DNA of 64,000 nucleotides from assembly GCA_910575585.1 (NCBI GenBank), contig CAJTGF010000001.1, positions 310,197 to 374,196 of the forward strand. Reading direction: 5' to 3'. The notes below the pieces were generated by a model. It saw nothing but the letters and a program-made list of their open reading frames with translations. It ran no database searches and was not told where the DNA came from. Source of the stretch: Clostridiaceae bacterium. GTDB taxonomy: Bacteria; Bacillota; Clostridia; Lachnospirales; Lachnospiraceae. This document shows, piece by piece, positions 4,027 through 63,447 of this stretch. Each line of letters opens with the position of its first letter. Position 1 is the first letter of the stretch. A program made the translations under genes and the position numbers.

Positions 4027-4064
4027 GTGGTGGTCTTGGGTAAAATGATTAAATTGCTGTTTAG

Positions 4065-4302
4065 TTGAGTGAGCAAAGGCGGGGGGTTGTCGTGGAGCCA
4101 GGGCGGGAAGGGTGGAATGGTACCGTCCGGGTTCAGATATGCCAAACATTCCGATGAGCCCTTAAGGCAGAAAACACTCGGGGTGAGGCCCTCCTGTTTT
4201 CCTGGTCTCATCTTCATGGCATATATTCACCCTGCCGGTACCATCCCACCCTTCCCGCCCTGGCAAAAGCAGATATTCGCTGGCCGGGATTTGCTCGCTT
4301 AA
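4065..4302 (-). repeat. Family A long hairpin repeat, copy 1 (reverse)
   Basis: About 238 bp bounded by imperfect terminal inverted repeats (TTGAGTGAGCAAA at 4065-4077, TTTGCTCGCTTAA at 4290-4302). Inside lies a stem of about 28 bp (left arm near 4098-4125, right arm near 4236-4263) with one G-T wobble, then a partly paired region and a conserved loop containing ATATGCC/GGCATAT and GATGAG/CTCATC pairs. The loop and ends match four other copies in this window, but the stem sequence does not. Seen directly; function unknown. No reading frame through it looks real. Confidence 0.85.
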
Positions 4303-4805
4303 GGTGTTTCCGATAGGGGCGCTGTTTCAACGTTGCGGCGGAAAGATATCTGTTTTATCGACAGTAAAGTTTGCGCATGGTATTTATCGGAACAGATCCT
4401 GCCTGTTATACTTTGGGTGTTAGCCAAAAGGATGTTGTTTGAGTCCGCAAATGCCATAAACATAATCCTTTCATATGGTTGAAATATGGCGGCTAATATA
4501 GATACTGACCAACACCATATTTTAATAACACGAGGAAAAACACCGGAAAACACGGCCTTTTTATAATTTTCCATATTTTATAAAGCAGGACGTGGAGTAT
4601 CCATGCGTGTATAGGAACATAAAAACTCGAATACCCGAATCCGCGGAAGAACGGAATCTTGCTATTGCTTTCAATTGCAAGGCGGCAGATCCTTTCAGGT
4701 TCACAGCAACCCCGCCTTAACCTTACTCAACAATATACTTGAGGCCATAAAAAGAAGCTGTTTTTTCGCTGCAAAGTCGAAACAGCGTCCCCTACCGAAA
4801 CCACC
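4303..4805. other. Noncoding spacer between inverted family A copies
   Basis: AT-richer stretch with no credible gene. Its two ends are also inverted copies of each other: the block starting GGTGTTTCCGATAGGGG (4303 on) mirrors the block ending CCCCTACCGAAACCACC (up to 4804). The mirrored region therefore extends beyond the hairpins. A 91-codon reverse frame (4299-4574) exists but starts inside a repeat end and has no recognisable content. Confidence 0.6.
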
Positions 4806-5030
4806 TTAAGTGAGCAAACCTTAGCCAGCGAATTCTGGTTTTGCCAGTCAGAGGAGAGCTGTCCCGTCCGGGTGAATCTATGCCATGGAGATGAGACCAG
4901 GAAAACAGGAGGGCCTCACCCCGAGTGTTTTCCGCTTTGGGCTCATCGGAATGTTCGGCATATCTGAACCCGGACGGGACAGCTCTCCTCTGACTGGCCT
5001 CACGACAATCCCCGCCCATTGTTTACTCAA
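4806..5030 (+). repeat. Family A long hairpin repeat, copy 2 (forward)
   Basis: About 225 bp, in opposite orientation to copy 1. Ends are TTAAGTGAGCAAA (4806-4818) and TTGTTTACTCAA (5019-5030). The stem starting GCCAGTCAGAGGAGAGCTG is perfectly paired for about 31 bp with its right arm (near 4968-5000). The loop carries CTATGCCATGGAGATGAGACC and CTCATCGGAATGTT, as in the other copies. Confidence 0.87.
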
Positions 5031-5154
5031 CAATACAGCAATTTAATTTTTTCTATTTTGCGCAAGAAATCGTTCTCAGCACTTAAGTTAATGCCATTGC
5101 CTGTGAACAGTAACAGCGAAACAGCGCATCGTAAGACAAAAAAACAAATAAAGA

Positions 5155-5213: not shown

Positions 5214-6032
5214 ATGACAGTCAAAGAAAAAATACTGATAAAACAATTCAAGCCGGTTACCATCCAAGATGACATGATGTTTGGCACCGTGATGGCAGAT
5301 CCCAAATGCTGCAAACCGTTTCTGGAAACTATTCTTGGGATAAAAATCCAGAAAATCGAGTACCCGGAAAGGCAGAAGACCATAGCCTTGGCTGCCAATG
5401 CGAAATCAATCCGGATGGACGTGTATATCGAGGATGAGGAACGCACGGTCTATGATGTGGAGATGCAGACAGGGAGAAACAGGAACCTTCCAAGGCGTTC
5501 GAGGTACTACCAGGGAATGATCGATCTGAACATCCTTGCCAAAGGGGAGGATTACGTCAATCTCAAAAAAAGCCTGGTGATCTTCGTATGTACCTTTGAT
5601 CCCTTTGGCTATGACGAGTATATTTACCGCTGCGGGGAATACTACCAGCTAAGTGACGGCTCATACCGTCAGCTGGGGGATGACGCCTGGAAGATTTTCG
5701 TGAATGCTGACGGTCATAAGGGAAATGTCAGTGATGCGTTTAAAATCCTGATGCGCTATATCATGGAAGGAGAAGCGAAAGATCCTTATACTCAGACATT
5801 GGAAGAGAAGGTGACGGCCATAAATAACAATGACGAATGGAAGGTGAGTTATATGACGTGGGCAATCAAACTAGCGGATGAACGGCGGGACGCCCGCGAG
5901 GAGGGCCGCAAGGAAGGCCGCAAGGAGGGCTATGAGGAATTACTAAAAAATCTGGTAAAATCAGGTGATCTTTCGCCTGAAAAAGCAGCGCAGTATTCCC
6001 GGAATGGCTCGTTAACCGTTTCTGGGACATAA
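5214..6032 (+). CDS. Rpn family recombination-promoting nuclease / putative transposase
   Basis: 272 residues of the Rpn/PD-(D/E)XK transposase-like family (TIGR01784 type). Family members are DNA endonucleases linked to RecA-independent recombination. Visible features: the N-terminal block PVTIQDDMMFGTVM, the nuclease core with RMDVYIEDEERTVYDVEMQ (conserved D and E-x-Q) and a charged C-terminus with the RKEGRKEGYEE repeat usual in the family. The frame is open further upstream, but ATG 5214 follows AGGAGG and a good promoter. It sits beside the inverted family A pair, a common accessory setting. Substrate and role here are unknown. Confidence 0.85.
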   Translation: MTVKEKILIKQFKPVTIQDDMMFGTVMADPKCCKPFLETILGIKIQKIEYPERQKTIALAANAKSIRMDVYIEDEERTVYDVEMQTGRNRNLPRRSRYYQGMIDLNILAKGEDYVNLKKSLVIFVCTFDPFGYDEYIYRCGEYYQLSDGSYRQLGDDAWKIFVNADGHKGNVSDAFKILMRYIMEGEAKDPYTQTLEEKVTAINNNDEWKVSYMTWAIKLADERRDAREEGRKEGRKEGYEELLKNLVKSGDLSPEKAAQYSRNGSLTVSGT

Positions 6033-19821: not shown

Positions 19822-20041
19822 TTAAGCAAGCAGACCTAAGCCAGCGAATCCTGCATTTGCCGTAGAGAGAGGCGGTCCCGTCCGGGTGAATATATGCCAT
19901 GGAGATGAGACCATAGAAAACAGGAGGGCCCAACCCCGAGTGTTTTCTGTTTTACTGGGCTCATCGGAATGTTTGGCATATCTGAACCCGGACGGGACCG
20001 CCTCTTTCTACGGCCTGCCACAACGCCGACTATATTGCAAT
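19822..20041 (+). repeat. Family A long hairpin repeat, copy 3 (forward, single)
   Basis: Ends are TTAAGCAAGCAGA (19822-19834) and a degraded right end near 20041. The stem starting GCCGTAGAGAGAGGCGG pairs over about 30 bp with its right arm (near 19993-20022), with one G-T wobble. The loop matches the others (ATATGCCATGGAGATGAGACC; GGGCTCATCGGAATGTTTGG). Unlike the other copies it has no mirror partner nearby. Confidence 0.82.
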
Positions 20042-30994: not shown

Positions 30995-31018
30995 AGTTTG
31001 TCAAGAAAAAACACTTGA
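30995..31018. repeat. 24-bp direct repeat, left copy, bordering the accessory segment
   Basis: Identical over 24 bp to 33280-33303. It starts AGTTTGTCAAG and ends AACACTTGA. Together they bracket 2.3 kb of accessory DNA between ylxM and ffh. Confidence 0.9.
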
Positions 31019-31021
31019 TAT

Positions 31022-31184
31022 ATGTACTCTCGGAATCTCTCTTGCACCTGCCTTTGCGGATGATTTTCCGTCATATGCACATAAATTTAATCAACGTATG
31101 TTCCACGTACGCCTCATAAATTTATGCGCATCTGACAAAAAATCATCTCACAAAATCAGGCACAAAGAGACTCCGAGAGTACAT
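31022..31184 (-). mobile_element. Family B palindromic element, copy 1
   Basis: 163 bp, starting ATGTACTCTCGGA and ending TCCGAGAGTACAT, and self-complementary through much of its length (for example CATAAATTTA arms around a central CGTATGTTCCACGTACG). Nearly identical in reverse orientation to 38791-38953, with a shorter relative at 63284-63411. No gene inside, so it behaves like a miniature inverted-repeat element. It abuts the left direct repeat. Confidence 0.85.
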
Positions 31185-37893: not shown

Positions 37894-38787
37894 ATGAATA
37901 TACAGTGGTATCCCGGCCATATGACCAAGGCCAGGCGGGCTATGAAGGAAGATATGAAGCTGATCGACCTGATCATCGAACTGGTGGATGCCAGGGTGCC
38001 GGTTTCCAGCAGGAATCCGGATATTGATGAGCTGGGCAGGCAGAAGGCCAGGCTGGTGCTCCTCAACAAGGCCGATCTGGCCGGCGAAGGGGCCAATGAC
38101 GCCTGGGTCCGGTGGTTTCGGGGCCAGGGAGTCCAGGCGGTGAAGCTGGATTCCAGAAGCCGGGCCGGGTTAAAGCAGATCCAGGCAGCGGTCCAGGAGG
38201 CTTGCAGAGAGAAGATCGAGAGGGATAAAAAGCGGGGCATTTTAAACCGCCCGGTGCGGGCCATGGTGGTAGGCATCCCCAACGTTGGCAAGTCTACATT
38301 CATCAATTCCTACGCGGGGAAAGCCTGCGCCAGGACAGGCAATAAGCCGGGGGTCACCAAGGGGAACCAGTGGATAAGGCTGAACAAGAGCCTGGAGCTT
38401 CTGGACACTCCCGGCATCTTGTGGCCCCGGTTTGAGAGCCAGGAGGTGGGGCTCCATCTGGCGCTGATCGGCTCCATCAATGACCAGATCCTGGACAGGC
38501 AGCAGCTGGGGGCAGAGCTTATTTGTCTTCTGGCAGAGCGGTATCCTTTGGCGCTTGCCCAGCGGTACGGGGACATAGGGGCCGGGGGGCATTTAGTCCA
38601 GGTCGATGGTTTAGAAGAGGCGGCCGGGATCTTGGAGGAGATCGCAAGGGCCAGAGGCTGTCTTATGAAGGGCGGTCAGTGCGATCTTAAGAAGGCGGCG
38701 GATCTTCTGCTGGATGATTTCAGAAGCGGGAGATTGGGCAGGATCACCTTGGAGTTTCCGCCTGATGAAGAGAACACGGATGGTTGA
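37894..38787 (+). CDS. rbgA: Ribosome biogenesis GTPase RbgA (YlqF)
   Basis: 297 residues. A circularly permuted GTPase: NIQWYPGHMTKARRAM, G4 LVLLNKADL, G1 VGIPNVGKSTFIN, G2/G3 GVTKGNQWI and LLDTPGILWP, then a helical C-terminal domain. Needed for late 50S assembly. Start ATG 37894 after AGGAG; a family B palindrome follows the stop directly. Confidence 0.96.
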   Translation: MNIQWYPGHMTKARRAMKEDMKLIDLIIELVDARVPVSSRNPDIDELGRQKARLVLLNKADLAGEGANDAWVRWFRGQGVQAVKLDSRSRAGLKQIQAAVQEACREKIERDKKRGILNRPVRAMVVGIPNVGKSTFINSYAGKACARTGNKPGVTKGNQWIRLNKSLELLDTPGILWPRFESQEVGLHLALIGSINDQILDRQQLGAELICLLAERYPLALAQRYGDIGAGGHLVQVDGLEEAAGILEEIARARGCLMKGGQCDLKKAADLLLDDFRSGRLGRITLEFPPDEENTDG

Positions 38788-38790
38788 GAC

Positions 38791-38953
38791 ATGTACTCTC
38801 GGAGTCTCTTTGTGCCTGATTTTGTGAGATGATTTTTTGTCAGATGTGCATAAATTTATGAGGCGTACGTGGAACGTACGTTGATTAAATTTATGTGCAT
38901 ATGACGGAAAATCATCCACAAAGGCAGGTGCAAGAGAGATTCCGAGAGTACAT
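38791..38953 (+). mobile_element. Family B palindromic element, copy 2
   Basis: 163 bp, reverse complement of copy 1 with only a few changes. It sits between rbgA and rnhB. It starts 4 bp after the rbgA stop and ends 26 bp before the rnhB start codon. It opens the rnhB frame upstream, but the rnhB Shine-Dalgarno lies just outside the element. Confidence 0.87.
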
Positions 38954-38978
38954 AGACACGAAAAGGAGGAAAACTGCC

Positions 38979-42617: not shown

Positions 42618-42763
42618 AGAAAACCTCCTTTTCCTCATAGGACTGGGCCCATAGACAGGCCCAAATATGGATTGATGTATTACTATATATATCGTCGGAT
42701 CGCGGAAATGGTTAACCTAACCCAGATAAACCGGAACTTTAAATTCGTTATGTTGCTGTATTG

Positions 42764-42999
42764 TTGAGTGAGCAAAGGCGGGGATTGTGGCGGAGCCCGG
42801 GAGGGAAGGCAGGCTGTGTGCCGTTCGGGTTCAGATATGCCAGACATTCCGATGAGCCCTTAAAACGGAAATCAGTCGGGTATCATCCCTCCTGCTTTCC
42901 TGGTCTCATCTCCATGGCATAGATTCACCCGCCCGGCACACAGCCTGCCTTCCCTCCCGGGCAAAAGCAGAATTCGCTGGCCGGGATTTGCTCACTTAA
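42764..42999 (-). repeat. Family A long hairpin repeat, copy 4 (reverse)
   Basis: 236 bp with ends TTGAGTGAGCAAA (42764-42776) and TTTGCTCACTTAA (42987-42999). The stem starting GCCCGGGAGGGAAGGCAGG pairs perfectly for about 29 bp. Loop ATATGCCAGACATTCCGATG is as in the other copies, but the inner loop reads GGTATCATCCC where copies 1-3 read GGTGAGGCCC. Confidence 0.86.
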
Positions 43000-43152
43000 G
43001 GTGGTTTTGATAGGGAACGCTGTTTCGACTCTGTAGTGAAAAGATAACTGCTTTGGCGGCGGTGATAGGTTGTGCATAATATCTATGGGAACGAATCCTG
43101 CTTCTATATTTTTCACTGCAAAGCTGAGGCAGCGTCCCCTACCGAAACCACC

Positions 43153-43377
43153 TTAAGTGAGCAAACCTTAGCCAGCGAATTCTGGTTTTGCCAGGCAGAG
43201 GAGAGCTGTCCCGTCCGGGTGAATCTATGCCATGAAGATGAGACCAGGAAAGCAGGAGGGCTGATACCCGACTGATTTCCGCTTTGGGCTCATCGGAATG
43301 TTTGGCATATCTGAACCCGGACGGGACAGCTCTCCTCTGACTGGCCTCACGACAATCCCCGCCTATTGCTCACTCAA
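43153..43377 (+). repeat. Family A long hairpin repeat, copy 5 (forward)
   Basis: 225 bp, mirror partner of copy 4 across a 153-bp spacer. The stem starting GCCAGGCAGAGGAGAGCTG is nearly that of copy 2, with one mismatch between its own arms. The inner loop variant (GGGCTGATACCCGACTG) is shared with copy 4, not with copy 2. The rest of the gap (42618-42763, 43000-43152, 43378-43471) shows no gene. Confidence 0.86.
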
Positions 43378-43471
43378 CAATACATTTTGCCATTTTGCGC
43401 AAGAAATCGTTCTTAAGGGTCTAAAAATACGCAGGGCGGCGATGGCGGCCGAAAAAGGCGGGGATTGCCGG

Positions 43472-55366: not shown

Positions 55367-56077
55367 ATGGCGATACTGGAGGTAAAAGACCTGGAAGTCT
55401 ATTATGGCGTGATCCAGGCCATTAAGGGAATCTCTTTTGAAGTAAACCAGGGGGAGATCATTGCCCTTATCGGGGCTAACGGCGCAGGGAAGACGACGAC
55501 TCTCCAGACGGTCACGGGGCTGATCGCGGCTAAGGCGGGAAAGATCATCTACGACGGCGAGGATATCACCAGGATCGCCAGCCACAAGCTGGTGGGCATG
55601 GGGATGGCTCATGTGCCGGAAGGGCGGCGGGTGTTTTCCCAGCTGTCCGTTCTGCAGAATCTGAAGCTGGGGGCTTATACCAGAAGGGATAAGGGGGAAG
55701 TGGAGGAGTCTCTTAGGACCATTTACGCCCGTTTTCCCAGACTGGAGGAGAGAAAGAATCAGCCGGCAGGGACCTTGAGCGGCGGGGAACAGCAGATGCT
55801 GGCCATGGGGCGGGCGCTGATGTCCCATCCTAAGCTGGTGGTCATGGATGAGCCGTCTATGGGACTTTCCCCGATTTATGTCAATGAGATCTTTGATATT
55901 ATAAAGGAGATCAATGAAAGCGGCACCACGGTGCTCTTGGTGGAGCAGAATGCCAAGAAGGCTCTTGGCATCGCCCACAAGGCTTATGTGCTGGAGACAG
56001 GGAAGATCGTGTTAAGCGGCGACGCGAAGGAACTGATGAACGACGATTCGGTGAAAAAGGCTTATTTAAGCGAATAG
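55367..56077 (+). CDS. livF: Branched-chain amino acid ABC transporter ATPase LivF
   Basis: 236 residues. VYYGVIQAIKGISFEVNQGE, Walker A GANGAGKTTTLQTV, VPEGRRVFSQLSV (LivF-specific), signature LSGGEQQMLAMGRAL, Walker B VVMDEPSMGLSP. Last gene of the liv operon; an 8-bp tandem repeat starts three bases after the stop. Confidence 0.96.
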   Translation: MAILEVKDLEVYYGVIQAIKGISFEVNQGEIIALIGANGAGKTTTLQTVTGLIAAKAGKIIYDGEDITRIASHKLVGMGMAHVPEGRRVFSQLSVLQNLKLGAYTRRDKGEVEESLRTIYARFPRLEERKNQPAGTLSGGEQQMLAMGRALMSHPKLVVMDEPSMGLSPIYVNEIFDIIKEINESGTTVLLVEQNAKKALGIAHKAYVLETGKIVLSGDAKELMNDDSVKKAYLSE

Positions 56078-56080
56078 CGG

Positions 56081-56136
56081 GATTGGCAGATTGGCAGATT
56101 GGCAGATTGGCAGATTGGCAGATTTGGAGATTGGGA
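56081..56136 (+). repeat. 8-bp tandem repeat (GATTGGCA) before the L,D-transpeptidase
   Basis: Five perfect GATTGGCA units (56081-56120) and two imperfect ones (GATTTGGA, GATTGGGA). The last unit runs into the GGGAGG Shine-Dalgarno of the following gene. Copy number could vary by slippage. Confidence 0.85.
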
Positions 56137-56149
56137 GGTTTTAAGTCAT

Positions 56150-61756: not shown

Positions 61757-62572
61757 ATGTTTCCAGATGAATTAGACGGACTTGATAACGTAAATGACTG
61801 GAGCTGTCCCGAGGGGGAGTACCTGGCGGAAGAGAGCTTAGACATTTTAGTTGAAGAAGGGCGGAGAATGTGCTGCAACCAGTGGAATGGCTGCTGCTGC
61901 CGGGGACCCAGAGGCCCAAGGGGACCGCAAGGTCCTGCGGGAGTTCCTGGAGCAAGAGGCCCGAGAGGATTTCAGGGTCCTATGGGAGTGCCGGGCCCTG
62001 TGGGAGCGATGGGCCCCCAGGGACCCGTAGGGCCCACCGGACCGGCAGGGTCCGGGGCGGCAGGTCCAACAGGTCCTCAAGGCCCGCAAGGTCCGGTAGG
62101 CCCACAGGGGCCTGTTGGCGCAACGGGAGCGACCGGGGCGATGGGACCCACTGGCCCCCAGGGGCCAATGGGTCCGGCAGGAGCGACGGGAGCAACGGGA
62201 GCGGTAGGTCCTCAAGGCCCCCAAGGTCCGGCAGGAGCGACGGGAGCGGTAGGTCCGACAGGTCCGCAGGGTCCGGCAGGAGCAACGGGAGCGGTAGGTC
62301 CGACAGGTCCGCAGGGTCCGGCAGGAGCGACGGGAGCAACGGGAGCGGTAGGTCCGACAGGTCCGCAGGGTCCGGCAGGAGCGACGGGAGCAACGGGAGC
62401 GGTAGGTCCGACAGGCCCGCAGGGTCCGGCAGGAGCAGCCGGAGCAGAAGGCCCCACAGGCCCGCAAGGACCAACAGGAGCCACGGCTCCTTATATTTAT
62501 ACAAAACAACTACAGACCCATATCAAGACCGAAAGAGCAGATCGGCAGATTGATAGCTATGCCATCTTTTAA
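61757..62572 (+). CDS. Collagen-like Gly-X-Y repeat protein, probable spore-surface protein
   Basis: 271 residues. N-terminal domain of 50 residues ([20 protein letters not shown]) with a cysteine cluster ([11 protein letters not shown]), then about 190 residues of unbroken Gly-X-Y, rich in GPQGP, GATGAT and GPTGPQ. The last part is built from 15- or 18-residue units ([15 protein letters not shown]). After the repeats only 28 charged residues follow ([19 protein letters not shown]), without the globular trimerising domain of BclA-type filaments, so the 3' end may be lost. The N-terminus has no export signal, fitting a mother-cell exosporium or coat protein. Start ATG 61757 after AAAGGAG. Confidence 0.85.
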
Positions 62573-63130: not shown

Positions 63131-63283
63131 TGACAGTAGATCCGGCCAAGGCGCTCTTTGTGGGAAACCATGGGGAGCGTTTTTTGGCGTGATAAAAATG
63201 AGGAAGAGGAAAGAAAAGGGACCGGTGCCGGGAAATGATATTGGACAAATGTGCTGTCATAAACTATGTTATATAATAAATAA

Positions 63284-63411
63284 ATGTACGTTCGGAATCT
63301 CTCTTGCGCCTGTCTTTGTGTGTGATTTTCCGTCATATGCATATAAATTTATCTACATCTGACAAAAAATCATCTCACAAAATCAGGCACAAAGAGACTC
63401 CGAGAGTACAT
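63284..63411 (-). mobile_element. Family B palindromic element, copy 3 (shortened)
   Basis: 128 bp. It has the same orientation and right end as copy 1, but about 35 bp of the centre is missing, consistent with deletion between the two ATAAATTTAT repeats. The left end begins ATGTACGTTCGGA. Confidence 0.8.
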
Positions 63412-63447
63412 GATAATGTGAAAGGAGGATGGAACATTTGGAAGCCG

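Follow-up and report, generated by a model that had tools for sequence, protein, structure and literature searches.

A Lachnospiraceae family of mobile DNA hairpins: conserved tip, strictly paired stems of free sequence

The long hairpins in the stretch of DNA analyzed here (64,000 nucleotides of a Clostridiaceae bacterium, GenBank assembly GCA_910575585.1, contig CAJTGF010000001.1, positions 310,197 to 374,196; hereafter the window) belong to a real, mobile family that occurs across several Lachnospiraceae genera and in which the sequence of the stem is free and its pairing strict. An initial annotation of the window had proposed conserved structure with free stem sequence from five copies; this is borne out, and other genomes show it much more plainly than the window does. 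We tentatively explain the family, by the most plausible of the readings weighed here, as mobile, non-autonomous DNA hairpins of Lachnospiraceae with a structured tip under selection and a free-sequence stem whose arms are homogenized mainly by template switching. What keeps the arms alike is something that we infer, and the function is putative.

Hairpins of the window and their composite elements

All five hairpins reported earlier have near-perfect arms, and every arm pair was located in the window. The features are as follows:

4041..5090, no strand: composite element I, made up of copies 1 and 2; approximate borders; at the right, end X in an older form
4097..4264, minus strand: hairpin A, copy 1; arms 4097-4144 and 4217-4264; model tip match 4118-4244
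4832..5009, plus strand: hairpin B, copy 2, mirrored; arms 4832-4884 and 4957-5009; model tip match 4858-4982
19859..20014, plus strand: hairpin C, copy 3; arms 19859-19899 and 19974-20014; model tip match 19872-20000
42717..42747, plus strand: end Y; short hairpin CCGG-ATAAA-CCGG in the consensus, left side CCAG here
42718..43423, no strand: composite element II (copies 4 and 5); 706 bp, end Y to end X; row L030
42795..42962, minus strand: hairpin A, copy 4; arms 42795-42842 and 42915-42962; model tip match 42816-42942
42949..43203, no strand: mirrored inner repeats round a short spacer; arms 42949-43042 and 43110-43203, 81% complementary
43179..43356, plus strand: hairpin B, copy 5, mirrored; arms 43179-43232 and 43303-43356; model tip match 43205-43329
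43390..43418, minus strand: end X; short hairpin AAGAA-CGAT-TTCTT

Both the sequence and the repeat layout confirm that copies 1 and 2 are arranged in mirror image at 4065-5030. The five copies had been described as separate elements bounded by shared ends. Instead, copies 1 and 2, like copies 4 and 5, are the halves of single composites that extend past those ends, and we reject the idea of five independent copies. Each composite is one mobile-looking element, laid out as end, hairpin A, spacer, mirrored hairpin B and end; repeat families D2, D4, D11, D13 and D20 are common to 4041-5076 and 42740-43413. Beside copy 3 (19859..20014), the model scored no second hairpin within the window. When the five hairpins are aligned in one orientation, the tip is common and the stem differs. 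The stems are of three kinds, however, and not five: B is the nearly identical stem of copies 2 and 5, A is the stem of which copies 1 and 4 have diverged variants, and C is that of copy 3. Among loci fetched from the window genome, 36 hairpins have an A-type stem and 31 a B-type stem, and a 32-row alignment of short composites of this genome conserves both halves and both stems. The claim that each copy has its own stem therefore fails in the window genome, a Hungatella genome whose subfamilies A, B and C each have a stem in common, and holds strongly in several other genomes.

The five copies are real, yet they are merely the window's share. The end motif alone has 244 matches at no more than 1 mismatch in the window genome, against 1 for a reversed control. 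The tip model gives 132 matches there, which is the whole number scored; some of them may be one palindrome read a second time, more weakly, in reverse, and the matches listed include at least 85 distinct places. The five window copies score 129-142 bits with the covariance model, all five being among its 13 training rows.

The window also holds a second, unrelated family of long inverted repeats (31018-31184, 38787-38954 and 63280-63412), with arms 31021-31184 and 38791-38954 that are 98% complementary and 7.6 kb apart, and short repeat arrays at 56073-56140 and 62071-62475 with steps of 8 bases and of 9 + 45 bases. Positions 5214-6029, directly adjoining element I, encode a PD-(D/E)XK nuclease family transposase (Rpn-like, PF12784, E 1.5e-11).

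A shell with two unlike ends in the window genome

X and Y are two unlike ends that lie outside the mirrored halves. Of 26 elements of the window genome in which two ends were recognized, 24 run from X to Y and 2 from X to X; a T stands before X in 23 and a G after Y in 24. Target duplication is absent from this shell, since in none of the 26 do the two edges have 6 bp or more in common (chance 1.1%), and the X/Y elements resemble IS200/IS605-type shells in this respect. The inner unit occurs both ways round: in 19 X-Y elements longer than 550 bp, with the halves distinguished by short motifs, half A lies beside X in 11 and half B in 7, and 1 is unclear. Small single-hairpin forms exist as well, and three of the four inspected (L083, L098 and L128) have arms from both halves. 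Separately, a hairpin-free X-Y piece about 67 bp long (L207, G003:C27) was seen in 1 of 26 genomes of the genus, G003 itself.

At the locus of element II, genomes G010 and G011 lack the element: 118-120 bp separate the matches to prs and to the other neighbor, compared with 839 in the window, and this interval is too diverged to fix the element II junction. In G024, the same matches are about 1.9 kb apart with other content between them. The view that these repeats are unlike a transposon end is not supported: the hairpins lie in transposon-like shells that have ends and occur in many copies, and two congeners lack the element at one locus. No transposase was recognized by eye among the open frames of L081, L162 and L310; element II had no match in 50,697 phage and 72,556 plasmid records, and three exact tip patterns had none in viral contigs. 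A long collagen-like open frame (L162 1618-3657, G000:C19) lies close to two element copies.

The tip is conserved and the stem is free

The tip spans about 100-110 nt and consists of short covarying helices split by fixed internal loops. One loop is a tandem GA/GA, found between covarying helices in 80 of 96 rows; the block GGAATG is present in 74 of 96. In the 13 Hungatella hairpins from which the covariance model was built, 21 of 38 consensus pairs changed on both sides. An exact tip pattern found 20 stretches, every one titled Hungatella, and a DNA search found relatives in 10 of 61 genomes including the own genome, one being a weak match outside the genus. With the own genome counted, covariance-model matches were found in 9 of 26 Hungatella genomes and, under stricter filters, in 11 of 299 genomes of the family, where at most 11 matches were scored per genome and the counts per genome may include reverse readings of one palindrome. 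In these other genomes, the tip is retained and the stems are altered. The model search that the initial annotation proposed, of the own genome and of Lachnospiraceae, finds a persistent tip with stems that vary elsewhere, except that the own-genome stems are shared within their subfamilies. Mirrored hairpin pairs with the outward arrangement of the window also occur in another genus (G280; L265 1529-1660/1970-2100 and L277 1456-1584/1774-1904).

Rfam gave no match at gathering score in the window or in 20 loci. Matches below that score on the hairpins, to plant microRNA and similar families, look like chance matches to long hairpins. Beside a hairpin of G016, L319 409-503 matches the GA-cis RNA at 44.6 bits (gathering score 34.7). 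We found no account of this hairpin family in open-licence PMC text.

How free the stems are was compared genome by genome, with shuffled stems and the conserved core as references:

G280 (12 hairpins): stem identity 0.34, shuffled 0.25, core 0.74, arm pairs 344/353
G145 (5 hairpins): stem identity 0.31, shuffled 0.35, core 0.79, arm pairs 245/262
G156 (4 hairpins): stem identity 0.29, shuffled 0.30, core 0.80, arm pairs 404/407
G239 (3 hairpins): stem identity 0.34, shuffled 0.39, core 0.51, arm pairs 54/58
G016 (13 hairpins): stem identity 0.34, shuffled 0.22, core 0.75
G005 (4 hairpins): stem identity 0.47, shuffled 0.39, core 0.78

Stems are more alike in G131, G246 and G022 (identity 0.63, 0.56 and 0.65), so some genomes show a strong and others a partial copy-specificity of stems. 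Arms of the same copy match at 0.97, 0.99 and 0.82 in G280, G156 and G145, compared with 0.37, 0.33 and 0.32 across copies. Arm lengths range from 18 to 121 across the sets compared, those of G156 being 75-121 bp long.

Pairing chemistry of arms and tip

Arm pairs were counted in 90 of the 96 rows of alignment A3 (E <1e-10), leaving out L300 and L326-L329 (contig ends) and a partial match in L316. Of 3002 pairs, 2840 were Watson-Crick, 44 G.T, 30 A.C and 88 other. As a control we used the SRP RNA of 23 relatives (23 of 30 loci fetched, 7 at contig ends being dropped), whose 1932 pairs in the RNAalifold consensus comprised 1514 Watson-Crick, 362 G.T, 16 A.C and 40 other; the control differs in kind, with one essential gene per genome and consensus-based pairs, and so bounds the comparison and does not calibrate it. 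G.T makes up 1.5% of arm pairs compared with 18.7% in SRP RNA. The ratio of G.T to A.C differs between arms and SRP RNA with p 1e-15, and with p 5e-8 in a subset chosen by hand without G022, G224 and L314 (19 G.T and 12 A.C in 2128 arm pairs), these and the other p-values given here overstating independence because the rows are related.

A structured RNA with one functional strand should have G.T well above A.C, and the arms do not (44:30). Since G.T in the arms is almost as rare as A.C, unlike in SRP RNA, a one-strand RNA helix is disfavored for the arms. Pairing would rather be kept at the DNA level, or on both strands alike, and a helix of one RNA strand is unlikely. The readings left for the arms are a DNA fold, arm-to-arm copying and a need for pairing on each of the two strands. 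The initial annotation had suggested a fold selected as RNA or single-stranded DNA, or arm-to-arm copying; for the same reason both DNA options fit best, and one-strand RNA loses ground for the stem. For the tip, selection on one RNA strand is less clearly disfavored. Model pairs in 95 distinct rows comprised 3344 Watson-Crick, 119 G.T, 38 A.C and 63 other, 67 of the G.T falling in two pairs; the inner tip without three pairs has 21 G.T and 5 A.C. On the strand that reads CCATGGAGATGAGACC, there is a mild bias toward G.T in the tip and hardly any in the arms. We reject an ordinary known RNA gene on the grounds of the Rfam result at gathering score and the wobble test against SRP RNA.

What may keep the arms alike

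Based on these findings, we propose the following scheme. The unit would be a conserved tip on a stem of free sequence of about 18-121 bp. The tip would be recognized by some protein and held by selection; it keeps mismatches (GA/GA, GGAATG), and unselected copying would tend to erase tip mismatches such as GA/GA. The stem would have no preferred sequence, and the main process that keeps its arms alike may be template switching at the inverted repeat when the DNA is replicated. Template switching is described as homogenizing arms and inverting spacers (PMC8604942) and as making imperfect palindromes more perfect in E. coli (PMC7202029). It would also explain the inverted inner segments, the chimeric small palindromes and the very long G156 arms. 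Several results suggest this reading: arms of the same copy match and arms of different copies do not (G280, G156, G145); G145 and G156 stems are no more alike than shuffled ones while their tips are 0.79-0.80 identical; G.T and A.C are 44 and 30 of 3002 in arms compared with 362 and 16 of 1932 in SRP RNA; G156 arms of 75-121 bp pair at 404 of 407 positions; and the inner unit occurs in both orientations, with small forms mixing arms of both halves. Copies would spread inside unrelated shells, IS200/IS605-like and without target duplication in the window genome, and with terminal repeats and duplications of up to 13 bp in G022, the latter presumably of the kind that IS4-type elements make.

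The G022 shell was found in 21 elements (18 in G022, 2 in G007 and 1 in G016), where the hairpin stands between repeats like AGGTAATTGCGAAAC. At the edges, 16 of the 21 share at least 6 bp and 12 share 9-13, compared with 3.6% of shuffled pairs; this shell thus has the terminal inverted repeat and direct target duplication of a target-duplicating MITE, and the hairpin module occurs in two different types of transposon shell. In the G022 elements, a single inverted repeat comprises the stem as well as the outer ends of the shell. Read in register, 20 stems have 26 two-arm and 22 one-arm changes, with 31 of 460 cells unmatched, whereas 18 pairs of outer ends have 3 two-arm and 57 one-arm changes, with 99 of 396 cells unmatched (p 6.5e-9 for two-arm versus one-arm changes, p 9e-14 for unmatched cells). 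No other result speaks as strongly for selection on the stem, and this contrast is also the chief obstacle to plain arm copying. Within one inverted repeat, the stem retains its pairing and the outer ends do not, which disfavors indiscriminate arm copying, since that should have made the ends match as well: arm copying would have to stay close to the tip, or selection holds the stem.

Close behind arm copying we place selection for a hairpin of folded, single-stranded DNA, a live explanation although by itself less likely than not. The stem would have to pair in any sequence, and the folded strand would be read by a transposase or structure-reading enzyme, as for REPINs and attC; one-arm changes would be lost by selection and two-arm changes would be compensations. 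REPIN spacers behave likewise, their length and pairing being required, their sequence not fixed and their changes compensatory, as PMC3116915 describes. Besides the G022 contrast, this explanation suits the X/Y shell, which lacks target duplication and has short subterminal hairpins, and the slight surplus of G.T over A.C, which folded DNA should show if G.T disturbs it less than A.C does. That surplus, mild as it is (11 to 4 in G022 stem changes, 21 to 5 in the inner tip), counts against arm copying. On the other hand, G156 arms of up to 121 bp with almost no mismatch exceed a protein's need, and G022 and its relatives have a target-duplicating shell; the transposases of such shells usually act on double-stranded ends.

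The gene context brings in a third explanation. Outside the window genome (G000), 58 of the 83 hairpins with an open reading frame on one particular side have it pointing at them (p 0.0004), compared with a more even 42 of 77 on the other side. On the first side, the distance from the end of an open frame of at least 90 codons to the hairpin is -16 to 75 bases in 45 of 85, compared with 24 of 85 on the other, the frames being mechanical and possibly including false ones. This non-random orientation is unexplained by copying and counts against arm copying alone. The hairpins could be 3'-UTR RNA elements, often read from both strands, that stabilize or end the transcript of the preceding gene; between convergent genes both transcripts would have to fold, which would forbid G.U on either strand. 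The strong covariation and conserved internal loops of the tip also suit an RNA. Even so, we regard this as improbable: G.T is far scarcer in arm pairs than in SRP RNA, contexts are convergent on both sides in just 26 of 85, no run of T follows the hairpins printed with flanks, and the small wobble bias goes the wrong way on the strand running off the gene, whose G.U is the A.C of the counted strand. A few neighbors recur between genera; prs, for example, lies beside element II and beside L275 of G280.

Finally, it is very unlikely that the stem arises afresh at every insertion through inverted copying of the target DNA, the arms being pieces of the site: the shuffled-like stems of G145 and G156 would agree with this, as would the L252 arm (one of four in G156), whose full-length match is solely to its own two arms in its genome, but G280 stems keep some likeness (0.34 compared with 0.25 shuffled), 13 weak pieces of the L252 arm (19-49 bases, 77-95%) recur in G156, two as an inverted pair, and window-genome copies carry their stems along. 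As far as this one of the four G156 arms tells, capture of stems from genes elsewhere is disfavored too. Template switching around a selected tip is the explanation that we tentatively retain. Rather doubtful is the further idea of a mobile, structured DNA tip that has no particular stem sequence belonging to it. The stem would then be built or rebuilt at each locus by side-to-side copying, each copy would turn into a near-perfect palindrome unlike all others, and pairing, not sequence, would be inherited.

Significance and comparison with known systems

If template switching homogenizes the arms, these hairpins would allow the correction of long palindromes to be observed in many natural replicates within bacterial genomes; if selection acts on the arms as folded DNA, gut bacteria would have a structure-reading mobility system that is yet to be discovered. 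Covariation alone would call such DNA palindromes RNA. Comparing G.T with A.C against a real RNA of the same organisms is a simple test to tell DNA palindromes from RNA genes among covarying hairpins.

REPINs and REP sequences are alike in being short mobile hairpins with many extragenic copies, often in mirrored doublets. In the present family, the tip is conserved, the stem is free and the hairpins measure 122-345 bp. REP stems are 5-13 bp (GTAG) or 8-9 bp (CGTC) with a GTAG or CGTC tag, according to PMC3733652, whose text does not mention Firmicutes. The arms of 18-121 lie outside those stem lengths; by eye, CGTC stands at the 3' base in several G280 copies and not in other genomes. The bcr repeats of the Bacillus cereus group are MITE-like and intergenic, some with conserved secondary structure, often in UTRs (PMC3446304); they belong to another taxon, and the portion of that paper used here does not mention copy-specific self-matched stems. 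Corrected quasipalindromes are short, single cases, whereas here correction would act on a family of elements with a conserved tip.

The attC sites of integrons have copy-specific, self-paired stems and are recognized as folded DNA. They conserve their base, whereas the present hairpins conserve their tip, and no cassette array was seen. MITEs of the IS200/IS605 type and of the target-duplicating (IS4) type are alike as small non-autonomous shells in many copies; the difference is that here both kinds carry the same hairpin module as cargo.
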